Under the pieces are notes generated by a model. That model saw nothing but the letters and a program-made list of their open reading frames with translations, did no database searches and was not told the DNA's origin. Shown here one piece after another: positions 1 through 31,276 of a stretch of DNA of 64,000 bases. Within the stretch, counting starts at the first letter, position 1, and each line of letters starts with the position of its first letter. This stretch comes from Deinococcales bacterium (GTDB lineage Bacteria > Deinococcota > Deinococci > Deinococcales > JAAFIG01). Position numbers and translations under genes: made by a program. The DNA lies in the NCBI GenBank assembly GCA_025352125.1, contig JANXTZ010000028.1, positions 186,001-250,000 on the forward strand, written 5' to 3'.

Positions 1-194
1 AAGGCGACATCCCCTGTTTGCCGACTTGCACCCTCGTTTAAACCATACGCCACCCGAACGCGGTTGAGGCAATCGCACCACTCTGAAACGCTGCGTATGC
101 CAGCCTCCACCGCCTCGGCTGGGGTTTTGAAGCTCGAGTTGGACAGGAACAAACGGGTCGCCTCGCGTAAATAGCTTGCACCATAATTTGCCAT
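1..194 (-). CDS. Partial unknown protein, runs off left edge
   Basis: An open frame on the minus strand runs from an ATG at 194 to the window edge, about 64 codons with no stop. It starts MANYGASYLREATRLF and has ordinary amino-acid composition. The frame stays open further upstream (a TTG at 221 and beyond), so the true start is uncertain, and no clear Shine-Dalgarno sequence precedes either codon. The family is not recognised. It is divergent from the phytase-like gene at 309. Confidence 0.45.
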   Translation of the reverse strand, partial: MANYGASYLREATRLFLSNSSFKTPAEAVEAGIRSVSEWCDCLNRVRVAYGLNEGASRQTGDVA

Positions 195-308
195 GAACCA
201 ATGATGCGACTCGAGTTTCAAGATTTCGTCAGGTGGTTTTGTCAGCCTTTTGTGAATTGCAAAACCCAGACACTCGAGCCGTAGATTCAAACCTCGGAGG
301 ATTCAATC

Positions 309-1565
309 ATGAAATCACGCTTGTTGGCTTTTGGTGCAATTGGTTTAAGTCTGGCGTTGGCGCAAGGCACGGTCAAAACCGAACTTGTTGGTTTTGCCAT
401 GCTGCCCGCCGACACTTTTAATGGCACTGTTCCCTCGGGGCAATTTACGGGCACAGGCGCGAAACTCGAGCAACCACGGTTTACAGGTCAACCCGTGCAG
501 GGCTTCAGCGCCATTCAGTTTGGTCCCAGCAAAGGCTCGTACTGGATGATGCCCGACAACGGGTACGGCGCAAAGTACAACAGTCCAGATTTCTTGTTGC
601 GAATTTACCAGATCACCCCAACCGCCAAAACCTCGAGCGGTGGCACGGGCGATGTCAAGGTTGGTACATTTATTCAGCTCCGTGATCCCGACAAGAAAAT
701 TCCGTTCCTGATCGTCAACGAAGCCAGCAGTGAACGTTTGCTGACCGGCAGCGATTTTGATATTGAATCGTTCGTGGTTGCCAAAGACGGCACCATCTGG
801 CTGGGCGAAGAATTTGGTCCGTTCTTGCTGCACATTGATGCCACGGGCAAGATGCTCGAGGCTCCGATTCCAACCCCAGATTTTGGCGCTGGTAAAGATG
901 CCAGCAAAGACCAGGTGCGTTCGCCGAACAACCCCAGCGTGCTCGCCAGCAGCCCAAATCCAGGCGCTGCCACGACTGCCAACCTGAATGCCTCCAGGGG
1001 CTTTGAGGGCATGGCGATCAACCCCAGCAAAACCAAACTCTATCCGATGCTCGAGGGAACGGTCTTGGGTGACACGCCAGGCACACTGCGAATTCACGAG
1101 TTTGATCTGGCGACCGAGAAATTCATGGGCGTGATCGGTCTTTACAAGCTCGAGGACCCAAGCTATTCCATCGGCGACCTGACGGTCATCAACGACAACG
1201 AATACCTGGTGCTCGAGCGCGATCAAGGCTCTGGCGACACCGCCAAATTCAAGCGCGTCTACAAGATTGACCTTTCCAAAAAAGACGCGGCTGGAATGGT
1301 GCAAAAAGAATTGGTCGTTGACCTGATGAACATCAGCGACGCCAGCAACCTTGCGCCCTCGAGCGTGAACGGCACGTTCAAATTTCCGTATGTGACCATC
1401 GAAGATGTGCTGGTGTTGGATGCAAACACGATCTTGGTGGCAAACGACAACAATTACCCTGGCACGGGTGGACGCGGCAAAGATGTCAAAGATGCCAACG
1501 AAATGATCTGGTTGAAACTCGAGAAACCACTGACGTTGGCGGCGGGTGTTGGCACGCCTCAATAA
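309..1565 (+). CDS. Secreted esterase-like/phytase-like family protein
   Basis: This 418-residue protein has an N-terminal signal peptide (about residues 1-19, ending LALAQG). The body resembles the 'esterase-like activity of phytase' family, a beta-propeller-type fold: GFSAIQFGPSKGSYWMM near residue 67, a WLGEEFGPFLLHID block near 167 and GFEGMAINPSKTKLYPMLEG near 232. It is probably exported and may act on phosphoester substrates, but activity in this family is poorly established. A GGAGGA ribosome site lies 7 bases before the ATG. A hairpin terminator follows at 1592. It sits beside a PHP phosphoesterase and a GDPD/ABC operon, which hints at organophosphate use. Family assignment is fairly secure; substrate is unknown. 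Confidence 0.8.
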   Translation: MKSRLLAFGAIGLSLALAQGTVKTELVGFAMLPADTFNGTVPSGQFTGTGAKLEQPRFTGQPVQGFSAIQFGPSKGSYWMMPDNGYGAKYNSPDFLLRIYQITPTAKTSSGGTGDVKVGTFIQLRDPDKKIPFLIVNEASSERLLTGSDFDIESFVVAKDGTIWLGEEFGPFLLHIDATGKMLEAPIPTPDFGAGKDASKDQVRSPNNPSVLASSPNPGAATTANLNASRGFEGMAINPSKTKLYPMLEGTVLGDTPGTLRIHEFDLATEKFMGVIGLYKLEDPSYSIGDLTVINDNEYLVLERDQGSGDTAKFKRVYKIDLSKKDAAGMVQKELVVDLMNISDASNLAPSSVNGTFKFPYVTIEDVLVLDANTILVANDNNYPGTGGRGKDVKDANEMIWLKLEKPLTLAAGVGTPQ

Positions 1566-1591
1566 ACCACTTGGGAGTTCCTCTTTTTTTG

Positions 1592-1624
1592 ACGCACAGG
1601 GAGTCGCTCCCCTGTGCGTTTCTG
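1592..1624 (+). terminator. Rho-independent-like terminator
   Basis: Ten-base perfect stem ACGCACAGGG (1592-1601) with CCCTGTGCGT (1610-1619), loop of 8, followed by a short T-rich run. It lies just after the phytase-like gene. Confidence 0.65.
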
Positions 1625-1668
1625 ATTTGGCTGACAGGACGCAGACGAAACCATAAAAGAATTGCCTC

Positions 1669-3033
1669 ATGCCCAATTTACTCGAGATCACTGGAACGGT
1701 TTCGCCCGAAACCACTGCCGCCTACCTGCGTCACAGCTTCAATGTTCCCGAGGGCATCAAACAATTGCGCGTCAGTTTGCGTTACGAAAAACCTGGAATC
1801 TGTCAATTGTACCTTTCCGTCTTTGGACCCAACGGTTATCGCGGCTCGAGGATGCTGCCTGGAGCGGTGGGTTTGATCGAGGAGGTTTTGGAGTTCGGTG
1901 AAGGTTTCGGTACTTTGGGGGCAATTGCAGGCGAGATCGAAGCTGGAAATTGGATTGCATTTCTTGACCTCGAGCGCACCGCCTACACCGTCGATTACAC
2001 CCTTACGGTTGAAGCCAGTCTTGAAGATGGTCTAAAATCCGAGCCTTTTTTTGCCACTGAAAATGGCAATGACGCGCCAGGTTGGTATCGCGGCGAGTTG
2101 CACTCGCACACGCATCACTCAGATGGTCACTCGAGTACGGCTGAACTGGTGGCGGCGGCGCGGCGTTACGGGCTGGATTTTCTGGCGTTGACCGATCATT
2201 TCACCACGGCGGCTTGGGCAGAACTGCATTCGCTTTCAGACGAAAAACTCTGCGTCATCACCAGCCTTGAGATGACGGGTCATCGTGGTCACGCCAATTT
2301 TCATGGTTTGCAAGACTGGATCAATCCGTTCGTGGACGAGTTTGAAACCTGGAGCATCAACGACGCGGCTCGAGCGGTCAGAGATCAGGGTGGCTTGGTC
2401 TGCGTCAACCATCCGTTTGCGCTCGATCTGGGCTGGCGCTATCACGAATTTGACTGGAATCTGTGCGATGCCATCGAGATTTACCATCACCTTGAAGGCT
2501 CGAGCAACACCGCCATGCTGACGCTCTGGGACGGCTTGTTGCGGGCTGGACACCGAATTACGGGCGTGGCGGGAACGGACTCGCACGATGCCGTGAAAGG
2601 TCGTCACAGGCTTGGGCAGGTCTTCACGGTCGTCAACTCGAGCGCCCTGCGGTCTGAGGCGATTCTGAAGGGTGTCAGGGCTGGCTGCGCTTATGTCACC
2701 CTTGGACCAACGCTGAATTTTTGGGCGACATCGGGCGCGAGTACGGCGGGCATGGGCGAGGAACTCGAGGTGAACCAAACCGTGACGCTCGAGGCTCGAA
2801 TCTCAAAACTTCAATTTCCAGCCCGGGTGATTGTCATGAAAAACGGGTTTTATCATGCGCACCAAGACATTGCCGCCAGTGAAACCGAAATCAAACTCGA
2901 GTTTGGTGACCAAAATCCGCAAGCTGGTTACTACCGACTCGAGGTTTTTGCAAAAGACGCACAACGACAAGACGGCGTTGGGCGCGAGTGGCAGAACACG
3001 CTGCTGCTTTCAAACCCGATTTACGTTCGTTGA
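1669..3033 (+). CDS. PHP-domain CehA/McbA-like metallohydrolase
   Basis: The 454-residue protein carries a PHP metallophosphoesterase domain from about residue 139. The metal-binding motif HSHTHHSDGHSS is near residue 144, LALTDHF near 170, and GTDSHDA near 302. The first 130 residues form a beta-rich N-terminal domain with no signal peptide. CehA/McbA-type PHP proteins hydrolyse esters or phosphoesters with bound metals. The start is supported only by a weak AAAGAA element; no better in-frame start is seen. It converges on the glycerophosphodiesterase gene, overlapping its end by 13 bases. Family call is good; the substrate is not known. Confidence 0.82.
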   Translation: MPNLLEITGTVSPETTAAYLRHSFNVPEGIKQLRVSLRYEKPGICQLYLSVFGPNGYRGSRMLPGAVGLIEEVLEFGEGFGTLGAIAGEIEAGNWIAFLDLERTAYTVDYTLTVEASLEDGLKSEPFFATENGNDAPGWYRGELHSHTHHSDGHSSTAELVAAARRYGLDFLALTDHFTTAAWAELHSLSDEKLCVITSLEMTGHRGHANFHGLQDWINPFVDEFETWSINDAARAVRDQGGLVCVNHPFALDLGWRYHEFDWNLCDAIEIYHHLEGSSNTAMLTLWDGLLRAGHRITGVAGTDSHDAVKGRHRLGQVFTVVNSSALRSEAILKGVRAGCAYVTLGPTLNFWATSGASTAGMGEELEVNQTVTLEARISKLQFPARVIVMKNGFYHAHQDIAASETEIKLEFGDQNPQAGYYRLEVFAKDAQRQDGVGREWQNTLLLSNPIYVR

Positions 3034-3746
3034 GGCTCAAGGCTCGAGAGCATCTCAATATGGTTGGTGGTGATGCCAGAAATTCCCATCTTGATCAGTT
3101 TTCGCATTTGCACGGGTTCGTCCACCGTCCAGGCGATCACCCGAATGCCACGGGCTTTCGAGGCTTTCAAAAACCCTGGCGTGACGGTTCGCCAGTAGAC
3201 CGTCAGCGCGTCCAAGAAATCGGCTTTGACTTTGGGATTCAGACCAAACGGAATAAATTCTGGAGTGTAAGACACGCCAATGCGCGGCTCGAGCAATTTT
3301 ATTTTTTGTAGGGTTTCAAAATAACCGCCGCAGACGACCACCGTCTCGAGTTCGGTTTTGTGCGTGCAATCAACAATTGCTTGTGCCAAACCGTCGGCTT
3401 TCAGGTCAACCAACAAACCGCAGTGTCCACGGACCATGTTCATGGCTTCCTCGAGCGTCACGAGTCTCGAGCCGTCTGGCAAACGAATTTTTTGCAGTCG
3501 CTCAAGACTGGTTTTGGCAATCTCGAGCTGCTGGTTTTCATTCTCGAGTTTGTCATCATGCCAGAGAATCAACTGTCCGTCGCTGGTGTAATGCACGTCA
3601 ATCTCGACCAAATCGGGTTGATGCTCGAGCGCCGCCAGAATGGCACGATCTGAATTGTCAATGCCAAAACTGGGTGCGCCACGGTGGGCGATTCTCAAAT
3701 AGCCTCGAGTCTCGAGGCTGGCTTCAAGGGCTGGCGGAAGTGGCAT
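3021..3746 (-). CDS. Glycerophosphodiester phosphodiesterase
   Basis: 241 residues, the normal length for a cytoplasmic UgpQ-type enzyme that hydrolyses glycerophosphodiesters to glycerol-3-phosphate and an alcohol. The HRGAP motif near residue 20 and EIDVHYTSDGQLILWHDD near 48 hold the catalytic histidines and metal-binding acids. ITTNHIEML near the C-terminus replaces the usual TDxP ending. It is the last gene of the ABC operon (start overlaps the ATPase stop by one base), which suggests the transporter imports a glycerophosphodiester or related organophosphate. No signal peptide is present, so it acts inside the cell. Confidence 0.87.
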   Translation of the reverse strand: MPLPPALEASLETRGYLRIAHRGAPSFGIDNSDRAILAALEHQPDLVEIDVHYTSDGQLILWHDDKLENENQQLEIAKTSLERLQKIRLPDGSRLVTLEEAMNMVRGHCGLLVDLKADGLAQAIVDCTHKTELETVVVCGGYFETLQKIKLLEPRIGVSYTPEFIPFGLNPKVKADFLDALTVYWRTVTPGFLKASKARGIRVIAWTVDEPVQMRKLIKMGISGITTNHIEMLSSLEPQRT

Positions 3747-21586: not shown

Positions 21587-21991
21587 TTACGGGATGTGAT
21601 TCCATTTGAGCCAAAAATCGCTCGAGGCTTGGGTGATGGCTTGCATGTCCTCGGGCTGGCTGGGTTTTTCCAGATAACCGTTCGCGCCCAATTCGTAGGC
21701 GCGTTGCAAATCCTTGGGTTCGGTGCTCGAGCTGAAGATCACGACGGGCACGTGCTTTAATTCTGGGTGTTGTCGAATCCAAGCCAAGACCTCGAAACCC
21801 GAACGTTTTTGAAGCTTCAGGTCAAGCAGCACCAGTCGCGGACGAATGTTATTGGGATTCTGAAAATAATCAATTGCGGCGTCTCCGTCGGTCACAACCT
21901 CCAAAAGATGGTCAAGCTCGAGCTTGATAAATGCCCGTCTTAAAAGAAAAAGGTCGTCTGGCGAGTCTTCCACAATCAATATTTTGCTCAT
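21587..21991 (-). CDS. Stand-alone response regulator (CheY-like)
   Basis: 134 residues from the ATG at 21991, chosen because GGGAG lies 5 bases upstream and the codon overlaps the kinase stop as ATGA. The single receiver domain has VEDSPDD, the acceptor Asp in LVLLDLKLQ, and the conserved Lys in YLEKPSQ. There is no output domain. It resembles Rcp1-type receivers that pair with large phytochrome or PAS kinases. It probably relays phosphate from the 1591-residue kinase. Confidence 0.9.
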   Translation of the reverse strand: MSKILIVEDSPDDLFLLRRAFIKLELDHLLEVVTDGDAAIDYFQNPNNIRPRLVLLDLKLQKRSGFEVLAWIRQHPELKHVPVVIFSSSTEPKDLQRAYELGANGYLEKPSQPEDMQAITQASSDFWLKWNHIP

Positions 21992-24900
21992 GATGTCTCC
22001 CTGGGTTGATTCAGTGACAACCAAAAATGGCTGCCTTTACCTAGGCTCGATGTTACAACAATTTGCCCACCCATACGCTCTATTCCACGTTTAACAAAAG
22101 CCAGACCGATACCGCTGCCTGGGTATTCGCTGACCCCGTGCAGCCGCTCGAAGGGTTGAAAGATGCGTTCCAAGTCTCGAGTCTCGATGCCAATGCCGTT
22201 GTCTTGAACATGAATTTTGACTGTCTTGGATGTTTGCTCAATCTCAGCCCAAATGGTGATCTCTGGACTGACATCGCTCCGAGAGAATTTGAGGCTGTTG
22301 CCGACCAAATTGATTAAGATTTGGCGCAGGATGGTTTCCCTTGCCAGCACCACTGGGAAATTCCCTTTGAGCGAAATGGTGGCGTTGTACCGTTGGCTCT
22401 CAATCTCAAATTCGTGAACCAGATCGAGCAGCAGTGGCGCGAGCGCGATTGGGGTCAGAATGATTTCGGCTTTGCTCAGGCGGCTGTACTGCAACAAATC
22501 GGTGATCAAAACATCCATGCGCCCCGCCGCGCCCACGATGCGGTTGACAAAATCTTGTCCTGCGGTCGGTGTGGTGTCGCTGTAATCTTCCAAAAAAGCC
22601 CGTCCAAAACCCTGAATCACATTCAACGGGCTTCGCAGGTCGTGCGAGACGCTCGAGGTGAACGACTCGAGTTCCAGGTTGACCTCAAATAAGCGTTTTG
22701 TGCGTTCCTGAACGCGTTCCTCGAGTTCGGCGTTCAGTTTTTCCAAAGCTTCCTGGGCGATTTTGCGGCTTGTCACATCGCGCATCGTTGACTGAATCTC
22801 ACGCAACTCTTTGGTTTGCGGGTCATAAATTAATTTGGAGAGTGTCTCGATCCAAACATAATCGCCGTTCTGATGCCGCAATCGAATGGTCGCGCTAAAA
22901 TGGGATTTGTGTTTTTCAATGGCATCTTGACGAATTGCCGTGTAAGAAGCCTGGTCATCGGGATGGGTGGCATTAAGACTCAAGACCGTACCTATTTCAT
23001 CAGGACTGTAGCCCAAAACAGAGCTTGCCGACGGTGAAACGTAACGAATTTTCCTGTCGGTGGTCGAAACGACAATGACATCCTGGGCGTTTTCGGTGAT
23101 GGTGCGGTACAAGCGTTCGCTTTCCTCGAGTTTTTTCAGGGCAACAACCCGTTCACTAATATCACGAAGGGTAGATTGAAGCTCTATTATTGCTCCTGTA
23201 TCTCTATCTCGAATCAATTTTGCTCTGGACTCAATCCAGACATAATTTCCATTTTTTTGACGTACACGATAAGTTGATTTGAAATCTTCTTTATGGTTTT
23301 CAATTGTTTCCCGACGAATTTTAAGATATTCATCTTTATCTTCAGGGTGCATGGTAGCAAAATTGGAAAATTCATCGAATTCGATGTCGTCATAACCCAA
23401 AACCGATTTTGCAGACGGCGACAAAAACTGAACTTTACCATCGGCATTCGAGATCACAATCACGTCCTGGGCATTCTCGGTGATGGTACGGTACAAACGT
23501 TCGCTCTCCTCGAGTTTTTTCAGGGCAACAACGCGTTCACCAATATCACGCACCGTTGCTTGAATCTCAATTAATGCTCCAGTTTTGTTGTCTCGAATCA
23601 ATTTAGAGGTTGATTCAACCCAAATATAATGCCCGTTCTGATGGCGAACTCTAAAATTTGTCGTAAAATACTCTTGCTGGTTGTCAACGGCTTGCTGACG
23701 AACGGCAAGGTAAGCCTGCAAATCTTCGGAATGAATAAAATCAACACCCAAAACCCTGTCAATTTCAATTTTGTTATAGCCGAAAATTGCTGTTGCCGAT
23801 GGAGACACGTAACGAATTTTGCCATCGATTGCAGTAATCATAATGACTTCATGTGCATTTTCGGTAATGGTACGGTAAAGCTGTTCACTGGATTCCAATT
23901 TTTCTTGGGCAATAACCCGTTCAGTCATGTCACGTGAGGTCACTTGTAATTCTTGAACCTGACCGTGTTGATCGCGTTTGATTTTTAAGATCGATTCGAC
24001 CCAGATATACCGACCATCTTTGCGACGCAAACGGCTTTCAGAACGAAAAACGTCCAAACCCTTTTCAAAGGCTTCTCGGCGACTTTTCAGATGCTGTTGC
24101 AAGTCTTCTGGATGAAAGTAATCCATGATCGGCGTCCGCACCATCTCCTCTGGTTCAAAACCAGAAAGTGCCTTGATTGACGGCGAGACATACAAAATGA
24201 TGGCATCAAAATTGGTAATAAATGTGACATCGTAAGAATTTTCGGTAATCGCACGGTACAGTCGTTCACTGGTCTGAAGTTTTTCTTGTGCAATCACTTG
24301 TTCATTGATGTCACGCAACGTGATTTGAAGTTCTTTGACATTGCCAGCCGTATCACGAATAATCTTGACGACCGATTCGGTCCAGATGTAATCACCATTG
24401 TTACAACGCGTTCGGGCTTTTGAACGAAAAACATCTTGACCATTCTTAATGGCCATTTGACGGTCCGCAAGGTACGGCTCGAGATCATCGGAATGAATGT
24501 AACTGATGGCTTGGGTCTGTTTTATTTTTGCTGGATCAAAACCAAGAATTGTTTTGACTGCCGGTGAAACATATTGAATTACTGAATCCAAATCAACAAT
24601 CAAGGTCACATCATGCGAATTTTCGGTGATCGTGCGGTACAACTGTTCACTGGCTTCCAGTGCCTGCTGGGCTTGGATTTTGTTGGTGATGTCTCGAGTC
24701 GAGGTTTGAATTTCGTCCATCTGGTTCGTGATTGGATTCATGACCATCCGAGCCGAAACTTCGAGCCAGATGATTGCCCCATCTTTTCGACGGGCGCGGT
24801 AACGGTCTGTTTCCAGGGTGCTTTCACCGCAAAGCAATCGCCTTTGGGTTTCGCGCGATCTTTGCGGGTCATGGTCGAGCTTCCAGTCGGACGGAGATAA

Positions 24901-26763
24901 GGTTAAAAATTCTTCAACGCTGTAACCGAGTATCTGATTGACCGCAGGCGAAACGTATTGCTTGACCCCTTGAAGATTGGTAAGTGAAATCATGTCGCTC
25001 GAGTTCTCAGAGATCAACCTGAACATTTTCTCGCTCTGCTCGAGCTTCAAGCTGTCTTGCTTGCTTTGGGTCAGGTCCACAATTGACCCAAGATAGCCGG
25101 TGACCGTGCCCTCAGCATCCCTTAGTGGTTCTGCCAGCCCGTAAACCCAACGCACCGTGCCATCGTCGTGTTGAAAACGGTACTCGTGCGAGAACAGTTT
25201 TTGTTCGGTCAAGGTTTTACCCCAGGCGGCATTGAATCCTTCTCGGTCTTCTGGATGCAGTAGGTTTCTGCTCCAATCGTTGTTCACCGCAAGAAGTCGG
25301 CTGTAACCCGTAATCTCTTGCCAACGTTCGTTGACATAAACAATCTCGCCCTTGCTGTTGGTCTCAAAAACGGCGACTGGAGACGCCTCCATCAGTTTCA
25401 AATAACGTTGATTGCTGGTTTTTAACGCCTGTTCAATGGATTTGAACGACTGAATATCAATCTGCGTTCCCAGCATCCTTGCAGACCGACCCACCTCATC
25501 AGGCTCGAGAATCGCACCCTGCGAAAGTTTCCAGCGCCAAGTGTCGTCCGCCATCTTCCAACGGTATTCGACCCAGTATTCGGCTTTGTCGCCAGAAACG
25601 AAAGCGTCCAGTTCCTCTAGAACGTGTGCACGGTCATCTGGATGAATTTGATTCTGCCAATCTTCGAGTGACTGCCGAACACTTGTTTTTTGAACGCTGG
25701 CAGCCAAACCAGAAACCTGGTCCACGTCGGTTGTGACTGTGCCGACGCGCAAATCAATTTCAAAAAAGTGTTGCTGACCTGCCAGCAACACCATTCGCAG
25801 ACGTTGTTCACTGATCCGAATTGCCTCCTGCACCTGACGCTTTTCGGTCACATCCGAATAAAAAATCAGTATTCCATCTGGACTCGGGTAAATTCGATTC
25901 TCGAGCCAACGCGCCGATGTCGATGAGGGATCAGCAATGATCGAGCTGATGTTTTGCTCCATTGCCTGTTGACAAGCCCGTCCAAAGTCACTGTCCAGCG
26001 CCGCAGGGAATTCTTGCCAAATATTTTTACCAATCAAATTGGACGTGTCGCGTTCCAAAAGTTTTGCACCGTTGGAGTTGATAAAGACAAAACGCCAATC
26101 TTTGTCAATCACAATCAGACCCTCGCTCATGGATTCGATCATGCTTTTAAAACGTTCATTCCCGCGACTGCCGCTCAGGTTGCGGGTCACGACCAAATAC
26201 GTTATCTGCCCATCAGCCAACTTGATTCTCTCAAAGATCACCTCACCCCAGTAACGAAACCCATCCTGACGGGTCAACCAACCCAAATGGGCTGCCCGAC
26301 CCGACAACTGGGCTTGTTTGAACAATTGTTCGGGATGCCAAGCTTCCTGATGGACAAAGCAATCAGCCACAGGTTTGTTTAAGATTTGATTGCCCGTCAA
26401 ACCGTGCATTCGGGCGGCTTCGGCATCCCAGGTGCGTACCAAACCACACGCATCCAAACTAAAGATGGCGTATTCAATCGTTCCAGCAAAAAACCGTTGA
26501 AATTCGTTCAGATGCTCGAGTTCACGCGATGCCATCTGGTCCTGGGTTTGGCGCGATTGAAGCATCAAGGTGTAAATCAAGGTTGAGCCGATCAAGGCAA
26601 AGGCAATATCGATGAAGATGTCCAGTCGCTCGAGTGCATTTTGTCCAAAAATACCCAATAAAATTCGGTGAGAGAACAAAAACCATAAAATTGCAAATGC
26701 CCCGTACACCAAAGCCACACGTAATTCTGGTTTTAGGGAACGGAATGGATTTTTAGGCATCAT
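21988..26763 (-). CDS. Giant sensor histidine kinase with ten PAS domains
   Basis: 1591 residues. Two N-terminal membrane helices (about 15-65) are followed by four dissimilar PAS domains (about 85, 205, 318, 445) and then six tandem, closely related PAS-PAC units of about 127 residues starting near 578, 706, 834, 961, 1089 and 1216 (each with a TENxxD and YVSPS-type block). HisKA follows (SVSHDLRSP, His near 1372), then an HATPase domain with DNGIGIE and GSGIGLAFV. Orthodox catalytic residues are all present. The AAAGG element is far (14 bases) from the ATG. It forms an operon with a receiver and an HD-GYP protein. Confidence 0.92.
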   Translation of the reverse strand: MMPKNPFRSLKPELRVALVYGAFAILWFLFSHRILLGIFGQNALERLDIFIDIAFALIGSTLIYTLMLQSRQTQDQMASRELEHLNEFQRFFAGTIEYAIFSLDACGLVRTWDAEAARMHGLTGNQILNKPVADCFVHQEAWHPEQLFKQAQLSGRAAHLGWLTRQDGFRYWGEVIFERIKLADGQITYLVVTRNLSGSRGNERFKSMIESMSEGLIVIDKDWRFVFINSNGAKLLERDTSNLIGKNIWQEFPAALDSDFGRACQQAMEQNISSIIADPSSTSARWLENRIYPSPDGILIFYSDVTEKRQVQEAIRISEQRLRMVLLAGQQHFFEIDLRVGTVTTDVDQVSGLAASVQKTSVRQSLEDWQNQIHPDDRAHVLEELDAFVSGDKAEYWVEYRWKMADDTWRWKLSQGAILEPDEVGRSARMLGTQIDIQSFKSIEQALKTSNQRYLKLMEASPVAVFETNSKGEIVYVNERWQEITGYSRLLAVNNDWSRNLLHPEDREGFNAAWGKTLTEQKLFSHEYRFQHDDGTVRWVYGLAEPLRDAEGTVTGYLGSIVDLTQSKQDSLKLEQSEKMFRLISENSSDMISLTNLQGVKQYVSPAVNQILGYSVEEFLTLSPSDWKLDHDPQRSRETQRRLLCGESTLETDRYRARRKDGAIIWLEVSARMVMNPITNQMDEIQTSTRDITNKIQAQQALEASEQLYRTITENSHDVTLIVDLDSVIQYVSPAVKTILGFDPAKIKQTQAISYIHSDDLEPYLADRQMAIKNGQDVFRSKARTRCNNGDYIWTESVVKIIRDTAGNVKELQITLRDINEQVIAQEKLQTSERLYRAITENSYDVTFITNFDAIILYVSPSIKALSGFEPEEMVRTPIMDYFHPEDLQQHLKSRREAFEKGLDVFRSESRLRRKDGRYIWVESILKIKRDQHGQVQELQVTSRDMTERVIAQEKLESSEQLYRTITENAHEVIMITAIDGKIRYVSPSATAIFGYNKIEIDRVLGVDFIHSEDLQAYLAVRQQAVDNQQEYFTTNFRVRHQNGHYIWVESTSKLIRDNKTGALIEIQATVRDIGERVVALKKLEESERLYRTITENAQDVIVISNADGKVQFLSPSAKSVLGYDDIEFDEFSNFATMHPEDKDEYLKIRRETIENHKEDFKSTYRVRQKNGNYVWIESRAKLIRDRDTGAIIELQSTLRDISERVVALKKLEESERLYRTITENAQDVIVVSTTDRKIRYVSPSASSVLGYSPDEIGTVLSLNATHPDDQASYTAIRQDAIEKHKSHFSATIRLRHQNGDYVWIETLSKLIYDPQTKELREIQSTMRDVTSRKIAQEALEKLNAELEERVQERTKRLFEVNLELESFTSSVSHDLRSPLNVIQGFGRAFLEDYSDTTPTAGQDFVNRIVGAAGRMDVLITDLLQYSRLSKAEIILTPIALAPLLLDLVHEFEIESQRYNATISLKGNFPVVLARETILRQILINLVGNSLKFSRSDVSPEITIWAEIEQTSKTVKIHVQDNGIGIETRDLERIFQPFERLHGVSEYPGSGIGLAFVKRGIERMGGQIVVTSSLGKGSHFWLSLNQPRETS

Positions 26764-27353
26764 TTTATTTGTTAAAACCTTTCACAAAACCCGTGAATCA
26801 AAAAATGTTCGGCTTTCAGAACAAAGGTGCAAACCTTATGGTGACAACCAGCATAGTTTAAAAAGACTTAACACTTTATGACAAATCAACAGCATCATCA
26901 TTTCCCAGAAATCCAATCGTTTGTAAGGAGCGCATTATTTTAAAAGGATCAAAAAGTGATCTTTCAAAATTGCAATCCGATTGGGTTAAATAATTTAAGG
27001 TAAACTTTGTGATCAAACTTACTTGTGTCAATTGGCATCAATCACGACTTCAAACCAATTCTCGAGCGAAAACCCACCTTATTGAATCACTTTTTATTCG
27101 GTCATTTCTTTAATTTCACCGTCACTTCTGTCAAAACCTAAACGATCAGTATGAACCTTTAATGAAAAAATCGTGTCTTGATGGGGTTTATCGGCGTGCT
27201 GCAACATTTGTCATCGGTACAACCTTGCCCTGGTTTTTTGCAGACACCAACCAAAAAATAACCATGGCAACTCAAAGTCATTGCTCTTTAACCATTCCCC
27301 AAACAAATTGCAAAAAGAAGCATAAATTTTGAGCGCTGAACAGACAATGAACA
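26764..27353. other. Long AT-rich intergenic region
   Basis: About 590 bases between the kinase start and the peptide-gene terminator. It is AT-richer than its surroundings and has only one CTCGAG (near 27061). No convincing gene or hairpin is seen; the kinase promoter must lie near 26790-26880. Confidence 0.5.
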
Positions 27354-27387
27354 ACAGTCTGGACTCAATAAATTGAGTCCAGACTGT
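27354..27387 (-). terminator. Long palindromic hairpin after peptide genes
   Basis: A 16-base perfect stem (27354-27369 with 27372-27387) and a minimal loop. It lies downstream of the two small minus-strand peptide genes and probably ends their transcript, although no long T-run follows. Confidence 0.6.
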
Positions 27388-27434
27388 CCATTTGAAACTC
27401 GAGTTGAACAGAAAATTTTTATGTCTTGGCGGGG

Positions 27435-27553
27435 TCAGGGGCGTGCACTTGCGCCACCACTGCCAAGACCAGTCGAATATGGATCGGCATGGGCAATTGA
27501 ATGCGTGCCAAAAAGGGCGATCAGAACCAAAAAACCTGAACAAATTTTTTCAT
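27435..27553 (-). pseudogene. Frameshifted twin of the small exported peptide gene
   Basis: Reading from the ATG at 27553, the frame begins MKKFVQVFWF and stops early. Restoring one T in a T6 run (the intact neighbour has T7) gives a 39-codon frame: the same signal peptide, cleavage region SIAHA, and a tail DPYSTGLGSGGASARP. The length is 119 bases versus 120 in the intact copy, so exactly one base differs. It may be a decayed duplicate, a phase-variable allele, or a base-calling error. An AAGAGAA ribosome site is retained. Confidence 0.7.
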
Positions 27554-27664
27554 GACCATTCTCTTTGATGATTCACAAACAAAGGATTTTTGGCATTGAA
27601 CACTCAAAGGGCATCGGTCATCGGAACACGAGCCAGTCAGAAACGAAACTGGACGGGTTGGTGC

Positions 27665-27784
27665 TTATGGATGTGGTGTAATGCTGCCACCACCACTACC
27701 ACAACCGATTGGATCGGCATGGGCAATCGAGAGCGTGCCAAAAAGGGCGACCAGAACCAAAAAAACCTGAACGAATTTTTTCAT
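27665..27784 (-). CDS. Tiny exported peptide precursor (39 residues)
   Basis: The ATG at 27784 has AAGGAG about 8 bases upstream. Residues 1-23 are a textbook signal peptide (MKKFVQVF, hydrophobic core, ending SIAHA), and cleavage there would leave DPIGCGSGGGSITPHP, a 16-residue Gly/Ser-rich peptide with one cysteine. It is divergent from a TPR-SARP-type regulator with only 57 bases between start codons, and is followed by a frameshifted twin. This is the layout of peptide-pheromone systems such as Rgg-SHP, although no sequence similarity is claimed. Alternatives are a small envelope peptide or a bacteriocin-like product. Confidence 0.72.
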   Translation of the reverse strand: MKKFVQVFLVLVALFGTLSIAHADPIGCGSGGGSITPHP

Positions 27785-27841
27785 GACTATTCTCCTTGGT
27801 GACTTGCCCGTAGAGAATAAATTTGTGGTACTGACAGGCTG

Positions 27842-29782
27842 ATGAGATGTACACTGAACAACTCGGTGGGGGTGAAAAACGTGCATCCTATTTTGAAACA
27901 TTTACTGGCTGGTGATGAAACCGCTGCGTGGCTGTTGTACCAAAGTATCGATAGACCCTCAGCGCAGGAAGATCGCTTCGCTGGCTGGGCACTCATCAAT
28001 TTAGAGCGGCATCTCGAGGCACAAGATTTGTTGACTCGAGCTGTGCAACGGGGTTGCATTGAAGCCCGAATCGAATTAGCCACTGTTCAGCGTTCACAAG
28101 GAAGTTTTCAAGATGCGCTTTTGACACTGAACGCGTTGGAACATCTGTCTTTTCAAACTTCGTTTGATGAAGCCTTGTACTGGCGTGAAAAAGGGATGGT
28201 CTATTTTTCACTGAGTCAATCACAATTCGCATTGATGGCATTAAATGCCTCGTGGGACATCATTCAGCGCGAACCTGATTTGCAATGTCTGCGTGCGGCG
28301 GCAGTTCAAAGTCTGGGCATGTTTTTTTTATTTCAACGTCAATACCAACGAGCGGTACATTATTTTTCCGCAGGACTCGAGGGGCTTGTTGTTCTAAGTC
28401 GAGAATTGAGAATTCGTTTACAGCGAGCCAGATGCCAGGTTTATCTTGGCGCGTTCTCAGATGCCAAAATGGATTTCGATTTTCTTGAACAGCACCTTCC
28501 TGCCCACCCAGCCTTGCGAGGAGAGGTGCAGTACAACCAAGCGCTGTTGTTCCGTGCCACCGAAGCCTGGTCGGATTCAGAAGAACTTTTTTTGAGTGCC
28601 GCCAAACTGGCTCGAGCCGCCGAAGAACCCGAACTGGCGTTTTACGCCGAAATCAATGCCGCCACCGTCATGGTCATGCAAAACAAACTCGAGCAGGCAA
28701 GAATTTTGCTGGTTCGAGCCAAAAGTATTGCCAGAAGCCCCAGAGACCATGCCACCTGGAACTGGCGGCAAGGCTATTACCTGCTGCATTCCAGACCCCT
28801 GGAAGCCATGCCACTGCTCGAATCTGCCGCCACAGCCTTTGCGGACATGAATTTACCCCGAGAGACGCTTGCCTGTTGGTTGAACCATGCCGAGGCAGCC
28901 AGACGCGCGGGATGGCTCGAGCGGGCAAAGCAATCTTTGCAAACGGCGGTGGATGTGACCAGTACCGCCGATGATGCGTTTGCGGCGATAGAACTGGCGT
29001 TGCTGCCCGATTTGAAAACCTGGTTGACCGAGCTACCAGTCTGGCAAAACATTTTGCTGCCCGCCATCATGGACTCGAGCGTGCAGGTGCTCGAATTGGT
29101 GACGCTTGGCAAGTCTCAATTGCGCGTCAACGGCAGGGCGGTCAGCTTGCGCATGACGCGTACTGTCGAGATTCTGGCGTTTTTGTTGAAAAAACCGAAT
29201 CGAACCAAATCCGATATTCTGGTGGGTTTGTTTCCGGACAGCGATCCCGAACAAGCCATCAATTATTTTCACAAAGCCAAACAACTGCTGACCCAAGCCG
29301 TCCCGAGCTTGACGATTGCCTTTGATCCCAAGCGCAAAATGTACAGTGTGAAATGTCAATCCGAATTGCAGTGTGATTTTTTACACTTTCAGTATCTGCT
29401 CAGTGGGCACCATTATGCTGATGTTCTGGATGTACTGAATGCCTACACGGGGGCATTTTTGCCCGAGGCGAACAGCCAATGGGCGAGTGAGGAGCGCGAA
29501 GCTTTGGCTTGGAACGTGGTGAAAATTGGTTTGGAGACGCTTCAGCAATGGTTTGAGGCGGGTGAGGATCAGAAGTGCTTGTCGTTGGCGGTTCGGTTGC
29601 TGGACATTGAACCGTACAATCCAGCCCTTTCGGAGTACCTCGTCACCGTTACGTTAAGGCTCGAGGGTGAGGTGGCGGCAAAACGCGAGCTGCAACGGGT
29701 GAATCAAAAGTTCTTGGTCGAACTGGGTGAAGTGCCCATGGAGTTGCGTCAGTTGGGTCAAAATTTGCTTCAATTGAACTGA
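27842..29782 (+). CDS. TPR-rich SARP/BTAD-type transcriptional regulator
   Basis: 646 residues. Residues up to about 410 are helical repeats of TPR type. A winged-helix DNA-binding domain follows (about 413-500, LGKSQLRVNGRAVSLRMTR and EILAFLLKKP), then a BTAD domain (about 510-646, ending in TVTLRLEGEVAAKRELQRV). This reverses the usual SARP order, where the winged helix is N-terminal. A later start, GTG at 27881 with GGGGGTG 6 bases upstream, is possible. TPR domains commonly bind ligands or peptides. The divergent exported-peptide gene suggests it may respond to, or control, that peptide. Confidence 0.8.
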   Translation: MRCTLNNSVGVKNVHPILKHLLAGDETAAWLLYQSIDRPSAQEDRFAGWALINLERHLEAQDLLTRAVQRGCIEARIELATVQRSQGSFQDALLTLNALEHLSFQTSFDEALYWREKGMVYFSLSQSQFALMALNASWDIIQREPDLQCLRAAAVQSLGMFFLFQRQYQRAVHYFSAGLEGLVVLSRELRIRLQRARCQVYLGAFSDAKMDFDFLEQHLPAHPALRGEVQYNQALLFRATEAWSDSEELFLSAAKLARAAEEPELAFYAEINAATVMVMQNKLEQARILLVRAKSIARSPRDHATWNWRQGYYLLHSRPLEAMPLLESAATAFADMNLPRETLACWLNHAEAARRAGWLERAKQSLQTAVDVTSTADDAFAAIELALLPDLKTWLTELPVWQNILLPAIMDSSVQVLELVTLGKSQLRVNGRAVSLRMTRTVEILAFLLKKPNRTKSDILVGLFPDSDPEQAINYFHKAKQLLTQAVPSLTIAFDPKRKMYSVKCQSELQCDFLHFQYLLSGHHYADVLDVLNAYTGAFLPEANSQWASEEREALAWNVVKIGLETLQQWFEAGEDQKCLSLAVRLLDIEPYNPALSEYLVTVTLRLEGEVAAKRELQRVNQKFLVELGEVPMELRQLGQNLLQLN

Positions 29783-29871: not shown

Positions 29872-30501
29872 TCAGTTGATGCGCTGAGACTCGCGTTCGA
29901 CTTGGGGGGTTTGACTCAAGACCGACCAATTGCGGGTTTGCGTGCCCAGCGCCCGCTCTAAAAACGCCTCGACAATCTGCGGATCAAATTGCGTGCCGCT
30001 GTGCCGTTGCAATTCCTCGAGCGTCGAATGGATGCCCCAGGCTCGAGAGTACGAGCGTTGCGAGAGCAGAACGTCGTAAACGTCGCAGATGTTTAGAATT
30101 CTGGCTTCGATTGGAATGGCTTGCCCCGCAAGGTTGCCAGGATATCCCGTGCCGTCAAAGCGCTCGTGATGGTGCAAGATGGCTTTGAGGGCGGTATCGC
30201 TGATGCCCGGAATTGCCTTTGCCAGCGTGTAACTCCAGTGCGAGTGGGTTTTCACGATTTCCCACTCGTTGAAGTCAAGCTTGCCTGGTTTGGTCAGAAT
30301 TTTTTCGGGAATCACCAGTTTACCAATGTCGTGAAGGTAGGCGGCTTGAGACAAAGCTTCCAGAGAATCGTCGTTTAAACCAAGCATCGTTCCGATGGAT
30401 TCGACCAGGTTGACCAAACGCCGCGTGTGACCGACGGGTTCGATGCCCCGTTCCTCGAGTTCCAGACCGAATGCACAAATCGTATAAATATCGGGCAGCA
30501 T
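29872..30501 (-). CDS. HD-GYP domain protein
   Basis: 209 residues, nearly all HD-GYP domain. The metal ligands in YLHDIGKLVIP (near 54) and the HHERFDGTGYPG signature (near 111) are intact, as are the DVYDVLLSQRSY residues. It should hydrolyse c-di-GMP but has no sensor domain, so it may be constitutive or rely on a partner. AAAAGGAG lies 7 bases before the ATG. It is downstream of the HTH-receiver gene at 30665, with a 160-base gap. Confidence 0.87.
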   Translation of the reverse strand: MLPDIYTICAFGLELEERGIEPVGHTRRLVNLVESIGTMLGLNDDSLEALSQAAYLHDIGKLVIPEKILTKPGKLDFNEWEIVKTHSHWSYTLAKAIPGISDTALKAILHHHERFDGTGYPGNLAGQAIPIEARILNICDVYDVLLSQRSYSRAWGIHSTLEELQRHSGTQFDPQIVEAFLERALGTQTRNWSVLSQTPQVERESQRIN

Positions 30502-30664: not shown

Positions 30665-31276
30665 TTATCGTCCCTTGGGTTGAATAAAATTGAGTTTGGC
30701 TTCGATGCGCTCGCGCAGTTGATCAAACGGTATCGGTTTGGGCAACAACAACACGCTTTCGGGCAAGCCGCCCTTGGCTTCAATGTCCTCTGGGGTCATG
30801 CCGCTGACGGTGACGATATCGGTGTTCTCGAGGTCGGGCATACTGCGCAGGGTGCGAATCAGGGCGAAACCGTCCATGCCTGGAATGCTGAGGTCAAGAA
30901 TCAAGAAATCTGGTTTTAAAGTGCCAATCTCCATCAGGGCGCGAAAACCGTCGTTGGCAATGCTGATCTCGAGCGGCAACTTCCAACTGGTAATCACCAT
31001 TTGATAGAGCTTGACCAAATCTGGGTCGTCCTCGGCAATAAAAACCCTGAAGGTGCGCCCTTCGACTTCGGTACGGCGTTGGCTGAGCAAACGGTCCACG
31101 GATGTCCGCACCACGCGGCGGTGTCCTCCGACGGTGCGGTAGGCTTGCAGTGCGCCCTGCTCGACCCATTGTTGTACGGTGCGAAGCGACACACCTAGCA
31201 AATCGGCGGCTTCCCTGGTGGTGATGACCGCGTCGCGTTCCAATGATCCGACTGTTTGATCTGCTGAATGATTCAT
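30665..31276 (-). CDS. HTH (excisionase/MerR-like)-receiver fusion regulator
   Basis: 203 residues. An N-terminal helix-turn-helix of the excisionase type (TREAADLLGVSLRTVQQWVEQG, with the first wing GGHRRV, residues 19-56) precedes a receiver domain (about 75-195) with EDDPD, the acceptor in LILDLSIPGMDG and the Lys in LLLPKPI. DNA-binding ahead of the receiver is the reverse of ordinary response regulators. It could be a phosphorylation-controlled DNA-binding protein for neighbouring c-di-GMP or polysaccharide genes. No kinase is adjacent. Confidence 0.85.
   Translation of the reverse strand: MNHSADQTVGSLERDAVITTREAADLLGVSLRTVQQWVEQGALQAYRTVGGHRRVVRTSVDRLLSQRRTEVEGRTFRVFIAEDDPDLVKLYQMVITSWKLPLEISIANDGFRALMEIGTLKPDFLILDLSIPGMDGFALIRTLRSMPDLENTDIVTVSGMTPEDIEAKGGLPESVLLLPKPIPFDQLRERIEAKLNFIQPKGR

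Follow-up and report, generated by a model that had tools for sequence, protein, structure and literature searches.

Across the Deinococcota, a gene for a small exported propeptide stands divergent from the gene for a large TPR-containing regulator, and we propose, with a probability of roughly 0.7, that the two form a peptide-pheromone module which works much as the RRNPP systems do, on a receptor of different architecture and outside the Firmicutes. The pair is described here from the window, by which we mean the whole stretch of 64,000 nucleotides of Deinococcales DNA that was analysed. An original prediction had proposed peptide signalling on a SARP/BTAD regulator at this site, and that proposal gains support from the recurrence of the pair at homologous regulators, its absence at other SARPs, the conservation of the peptide at the codon level and the co-variation of peptide and regulator.

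The gene pair in the window

The features of the region, with the basis on which each was called, are as follows.

27353..27388, minus strand: intrinsic terminator with a 16-pair perfect stem, closing the peptide transcription unit (sequence)
~27432..27548, minus strand: second propeptide copy, frameshifted (TGA inside a tblastn match; repeats D1 and D2)
27665..27784, minus strand: exported propeptide gene, 39 codons (ORF, ribosome-binding site, related divergent peptides at homologous loci)
27785..27841, no strand: divergent intergenic promoter region with the shared block TCAGTGTACRYCTCA (comparison with the G003_C112 and G002_C12 relatives)
27842..29782, plus strand: regulator of 646 aa with TPRs, winged helix and BTAD-type region (Pfam, AlphaFold model)
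29872..30501, minus strand: HD-GYP-type protein (PF13487), convergent with the regulator (Pfam)

The peptide ORF (27784..27665) begins with an ATG behind the ribosome-binding site ccaaggagaatagtcATG, which includes AAGGAG, and its 39 aa read MKKFVQVFLVLVALFGTLSIAHA followed by DPIGCGSGGGSITPHP. The strong ribosome site and the signal peptide originally ascribed to this gene are both found: the product opens with basic residues and continues into a hydrophobic core and an AxA site, and predicted cleavage between AHA and DPIGCGSGGGSITPHP would leave a mature tail of 16 residues. The signal-peptide calls for this peptide and its relatives come from a heuristic scan, not from SignalP. The window's peptide has no Pfam match, and eight peptides of the set have no NCBIfam match.

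A further copy had been reported just downstream, but it is broken: a homopolymer on the coding strand is one base short, with 6 T in place of 7, so that the copy reads MKKFVQVFWF and then stops rather than forming a second intact gene; the tblastn match to it carries one TGA inside. Two intact peptide copies in the window are therefore ruled out. The repeats D1 and D2 of the two peptide units are 93% and 91% identical and cover the 5' part of the peptide gene, the residual tail frame of the second copy runs ...AHADPYSTGLGSGGASARP, with the tail reading DPYSTGLGSGGASARP, and the terminator stands after this copy on the same strand. The copy is a pseudogene, a phase-variable gene or an assembly slip.

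The start codons of the peptide gene and the divergent regulator are 57 bases apart. The domains first read in this regulator, a TPR array, a winged helix and a BTAD domain, are confirmed by Pfam together with an AlphaFold2 model. In Pfam the protein matches TPRs (best TPR_12, 8e-6) and, weakly, BTAD, at an E of 0.0085 that falls short of the family's cut-off; the D. taeanensis orthologue passes that cut-off at 1.6e-7. In the model, built on an alignment of five relatives and with a mean pLDDT of 83, a TPR-like helical array spans residues 16-405, a winged helix follows at 416-511 and residues 512-644 form an all-helical region of BTAD type; it thus shows the SARP feature of an OmpR-type winged helix followed by BTAD. 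The true start of the regulator may lie 10-13 codons further in, at GTG 27872 or 27881, since alignments with homologues begin near residue 14, the model gives residues 1-12 a pLDDT under 50 and no ribosome-binding site precedes the ATG; start codons are uncertain for several regulators of the set. In profile comparison the TPRs match those of NprR (1e-6) and Rap proteins, with other TPR proteins matching better, and a Foldseek search of the PDB for a peptide receptor fold returned generic TPR superhelices only. PF01381 (HTH_3) has no match in the regulator. A phage or prophage origin was rejected, as no relatives turned up in the phage or viral collections.

Conservation of the pair across the phylum

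Homologues of the regulator were gathered from 111 genomes of the Deinococcus-Thermus phylum, from named genomes and from Deinococcus plasmids. The named genomes (Deinococcales MAGs, Meiothermus granaticius) were found by scanning genome contigs with a profile made from a closer-subset alignment, and the Deinococcus sample consists of plasmid records only; some peptide systems of this type are carried on such plasmids. A small exported ORF diverges from 36 of the 46 homologous regulators whose upstream region could be examined, across six families, which are Deinococcus, Meiothermus and four more of the phylum. With strict automatic criteria (ATG, ribosome site, signal-peptide features), such an ORF appears at 24/44 regulators and at 1/171 other genes of the same stretches (Fisher p ~1e-18). 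None of 24 other BTAD regulators (SARPs) from the phylum has a genuine divergent exported ORF, the one hit being an antisense ORF inside a gene.

Gaps between peptide and regulator are 17-244 bp outside one subfamily, f3, for which they are 460-588 bp when measured to the first matched regulator residue and shorter to the start of the reading frame. Ten loci have no divergent exported ORF; one of them has an exported ORF 3' of the regulator, and the others may use leaderless peptides or may have lost the peptide. At the former locus (G063:C3; L048/L085) an exported ORF, ...ALADPANVGSGLGSAVSIPTGQSAPAPGGR, lies about 406 bases after the regulator stop, which suggests a relocated peptide gene.

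Searching whole genomes for the f3 peptide gives matches in 11/39 genomes with at most one copy in each; nine of these 11 are beside the regulator, one stops at the edge of a contig and the last is a weak match in another place. The f3 peptide ORFs are under purifying selection: dN is 0.04-0.47 and dS mostly above 0.9, with substitutions mainly at third codon positions. These results bear on the alternative that a chance ORF sits beside the regulator and the likeness to signalling is coincidental. A single control gene among the 171 does show a small ORF with a hydrophobic start, so such ORFs do arise, but the control scans as a whole, the purifying selection and the genome-wide single-copy adjacency contradict this explanation and we give it almost no weight.

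Similarity between mature peptides correlates with similarity between regulators (Mantel test; 0/2000 permutations as high). This correlation is one of co-inheritance, compatible with ligand-receptor co-evolution and not proof of it. Orthologous regulators lacking any nearby small exported ORF, or peptides without conservation, had been named as findings that would count against the original prediction; instead, the ORF accompanies most regulators, the peptides are conserved at the codon level and their mature part tracks regulator relationships.

Peptides, promoters and neighbouring genes

The mature tails are short, typically 7-20 residues, and variable in length, and they fall into three groups that follow the regulator tree. 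The largest group, which holds the window's peptide, has Gly-rich tails with a [DN]P.TG.GGG flavour, such as DPGTGAGTGAGNGITTKP, APSGAGTF, NPGTGGFGG, GPGTGLGGGL and DPGTVGGGGLKIT... The f3 tails are 7-mers of the form GxxxSQR (GVHFSQR, GATYSQR, GAFASQR), and the f3 regulators have no BTAD. The third group belongs to relatives of the D. psychrotolerans regulator and has a DFG core. Several precursors carry the putative signal more than once: D. aetherius precursors hold GSKDFG twice or GGAHDFGQ twice, one precursor has LPSNDGWITIEGSQTV twice in full and a third time in part, and another contains SGATAFGGG twice. On the D. psychrotolerans plasmid NZ_CP034185.1 (L101) the DFG core occurs in three tandem leaderless ORFs of 10 codons (MNKAIKDFGN, MSKAIKDFGN, MNKAIKDFGN), each with its own ribosome site. 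They lie on the strand opposite to the regulator at 3011, some 130-370 bases upstream of it, and are followed by a terminator-like stem.

Other small ORFs were noted at plasmid loci. D. ficus pDFI1 (L099) has a divergent ORF of 67 aa at 3492-3695, without a signal peptide and annotated as hypothetical, in which YPVGSARLTG occurs twice. Two tandem small ORFs diverge from the regulator in Deinococcus sp. KNUC1210 plasmids (L104, 2625-2944; L105, upstream of 2983) and in L102 (2687-2952); the second of them ends in FGLE or YGLE (or DFGDR), and its product may be an additional signal or else an accessory protein.

These sequences also bear on what the peptide does. It could be an effector, whether bacteriocin-like, a RiPP precursor or a surface peptide, under a SARP-type regulator that does not sense it. 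SARPs commonly switch on product genes and some of the tails are Gly-, Cys- or Pro-rich, yet the genes expected around an effector are not consistently there: apart from HD-GYP, neighbours vary between loci, and modification, immunity or export genes are not consistently adjacent. The mature parts are sometimes of 7-10 residues only (GVHFSQR, APSGAGTF, NPGTGGFGG), precursors with tandem repeats and 10-mers without a leader are what one typically sees in signals, and peptide similarity follows receptor similarity, so that we hold an effector role to be unlikely, at something like one chance in six. Less probable still, by about half, is an envelope-acting peptide, that is, a small membrane or periplasmic modulator or a hydrophobic peptide like a type I toxin, beside a regulator that senses something else. 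A strong hydrophobic stretch is present in every exported form and import into a diderm cell means crossing two membranes, both of which speak for such a role; it fits poorly with the clear cleavage sites of AxA type, after which the tails are hydrophilic, with the leaderless copies in D. psychrotolerans and with the conserved tail motifs DFG, SQR and PGTG.GGG. The pheromone reading accommodates these features best in our judgement, and from it follow candidate signals that can be tested: for M. granaticius APSGAGTF, for D. aetherius the GSKDFG/GGAHDFGQ family, and also DPGTVGGGGLKITIPPSAPATSGW.

SARPs bind direct repeats with an 11-bp step. In the peptide promoters, direct repeats show their strongest enrichment at 11 bp among all spacings of 8-25 (36 loci, nine of them with p<=0.05). 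The M. granaticius promoter has an exact 11-bp repeat, ACCCAATACGC twice over, and its unit CCCAAYACGC also occurs in a distant f3 relative. In the window's own promoter no clear 11-bp repeat is present, and no sigma-70 promoter consensus was found in the window. The block TCAGTGTACRYCTCA is common to the window, G003_C112 and G002_C12 and partly overlaps regulator codons.

Enzymes of c-di-GMP turnover are the recurrent neighbours. Next to 13 regulator loci, the window's included, there is an HD-GYP gene, and two Meiothermus-type loci have a GGDEF-EAL neighbour, so that one or the other stands next to about a third of the loci; the density of HD_5 leads one to expect 0.016 per locus within 3 kb. 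The HD-GYP adjacency is partly shared synteny within clades, and when this is collapsed to about 4 independent associations in about 10 clades (a count made by eye) p is still ~1e-5. This adjacency suggests that the module would link peptide signalling to c-di-GMP.

Other genes close to these loci are recorded here as observations. Just beyond the peptide unit in the window lies a kinase of 1591 aa with many tandem PAS-like repeats as judged by eye (21988-26763, minus strand), and at 30665-31276 (minus strand) a MerR/HTH_17 DNA-binding domain is joined, unusually, to a response-regulator receiver domain. A histidine-kinase-like gene directly follows the regulator in G003_C112 and G002_C12. On Deinococcus gobiensis plasmid P2 (L096) an RNA-repair operon (polynucleotide kinase-phosphatase, Hen1; 1-3347) stands beside the peptide gene.

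Proposed working and comparison with known systems

Putting these observations together, we infer secretion, import, peptide binding, a direction of regulation and a c-di-GMP output as follows. The small gene would yield a Sec-exported propeptide, from which signal peptidase would free a short Gly-rich peptide (DPIGCGSGGGSITPHP in the window), perhaps to be trimmed further. An Opp-type ABC transporter could then re-import it; the window genome encodes 14 oligopeptide-binding proteins (SBP_bac_5). Inside the cell the TPR superhelix of the cytoplasmic regulator would bind the peptide, and this would alter how the regulator's C-terminal winged helix and BTAD engage the shared divergent promoter repeats. 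The regulator would in this way control the peptide gene, as feedback, and adjoining genes, often c-di-GMP enzymes. Autocrine or quorum-type sensing seems the most economical reading. A broader claim, to which we would give even odds, is that the Deinococcota possess a phylum-wide, independently evolved diderm class of pheromone systems in which SARP-like TPR-wHTH(-BTAD) receptors sense exported or leaderless peptides and set c-di-GMP through the adjoining HD-GYP or GGDEF-EAL proteins.

Signalling by TPR receptors and exported peptides of the RRNPP type (Rgg-SHP, PlcR-PapR, NprR-NprX, Rap-Phr, AimR-AimP) has been described in Firmicutes and in the mobile elements they carry (PMC10075063). The loci studied here resemble it in that the gene for a TPR regulator adjoins one for a small exported propeptide with a short mature peptide, and in that the heuristic scan finds a basic N-terminus and a long hydrophobic centre (Sec signal). 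The bounds used for RRNPP, a propeptide gene of 10-100 aa at -60 to 400 bp from the TPR receptor, take in the gaps of 17-244 bp seen outside f3. The divergent layout is as in Rgg-SHP, the leaderless short ORFs of one Deinococcus locus are like SHP, and the intragenic duplication of the signal matches a recognised RRNPP trait, propeptides with duplicated signal units (PMC10075063). The differences lie in the receptor. Instead of an N-terminal HTH_3 (PF01381) and C-terminal TPRs, the TPRs here are N-terminal and an OmpR-type wHTH and BTAD are C-terminal; receptor length is about 556-675 aa, outside the 285-473 aa of validated RRNPP receptors (PMC10075063); and TPR homology to RRNPP receptors is generic. 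The published RRNPP survey was confined to Firmicutes and viruses, admitted receptors of 250-500 aa and left out clusters whose TPRs are N-terminal (PMC10075063), so that TPR-SARP systems could not have been found by it, and its text does not contain 'deinococc'. No description of this pairing was found in open-access papers, though absence there is not proof of novelty. With Rap-Phr the loci share a Sec-exported pre-propeptide, a very short mature signal, a cytoplasmic TPR receptor and, in some hosts, carriage on plasmids; Rap, however, has no DNA-binding domain, and the sequence likeness of the receptors is limited to generic TPR.

Set beside regulators of the SARP/AfsR type (wHTH-BTAD, in many cases with ATPase and TPR), the regulator has the same OmpR-like winged helix followed by BTAD, and a further possible likeness is the enrichment of 11-bp direct repeats over the target promoters of the set, which the window's own promoter does not clearly show. 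It departs from them in placing the TPRs before the DNA-binding domain, in having no NB-ARC ATPase, in its paired exported peptide, which 24 ordinary BTAD regulators of the phylum do not have, and in one subfamily without BTAD. The comparison points to a module comparable to RRNPP that uses another class of regulator, in a second phylum whose members are diderm and among which Deinococcus and Meiothermus can be cultivated, and it gives a candidate signal role to small hypothetical ORFs, of which many carry no annotation.
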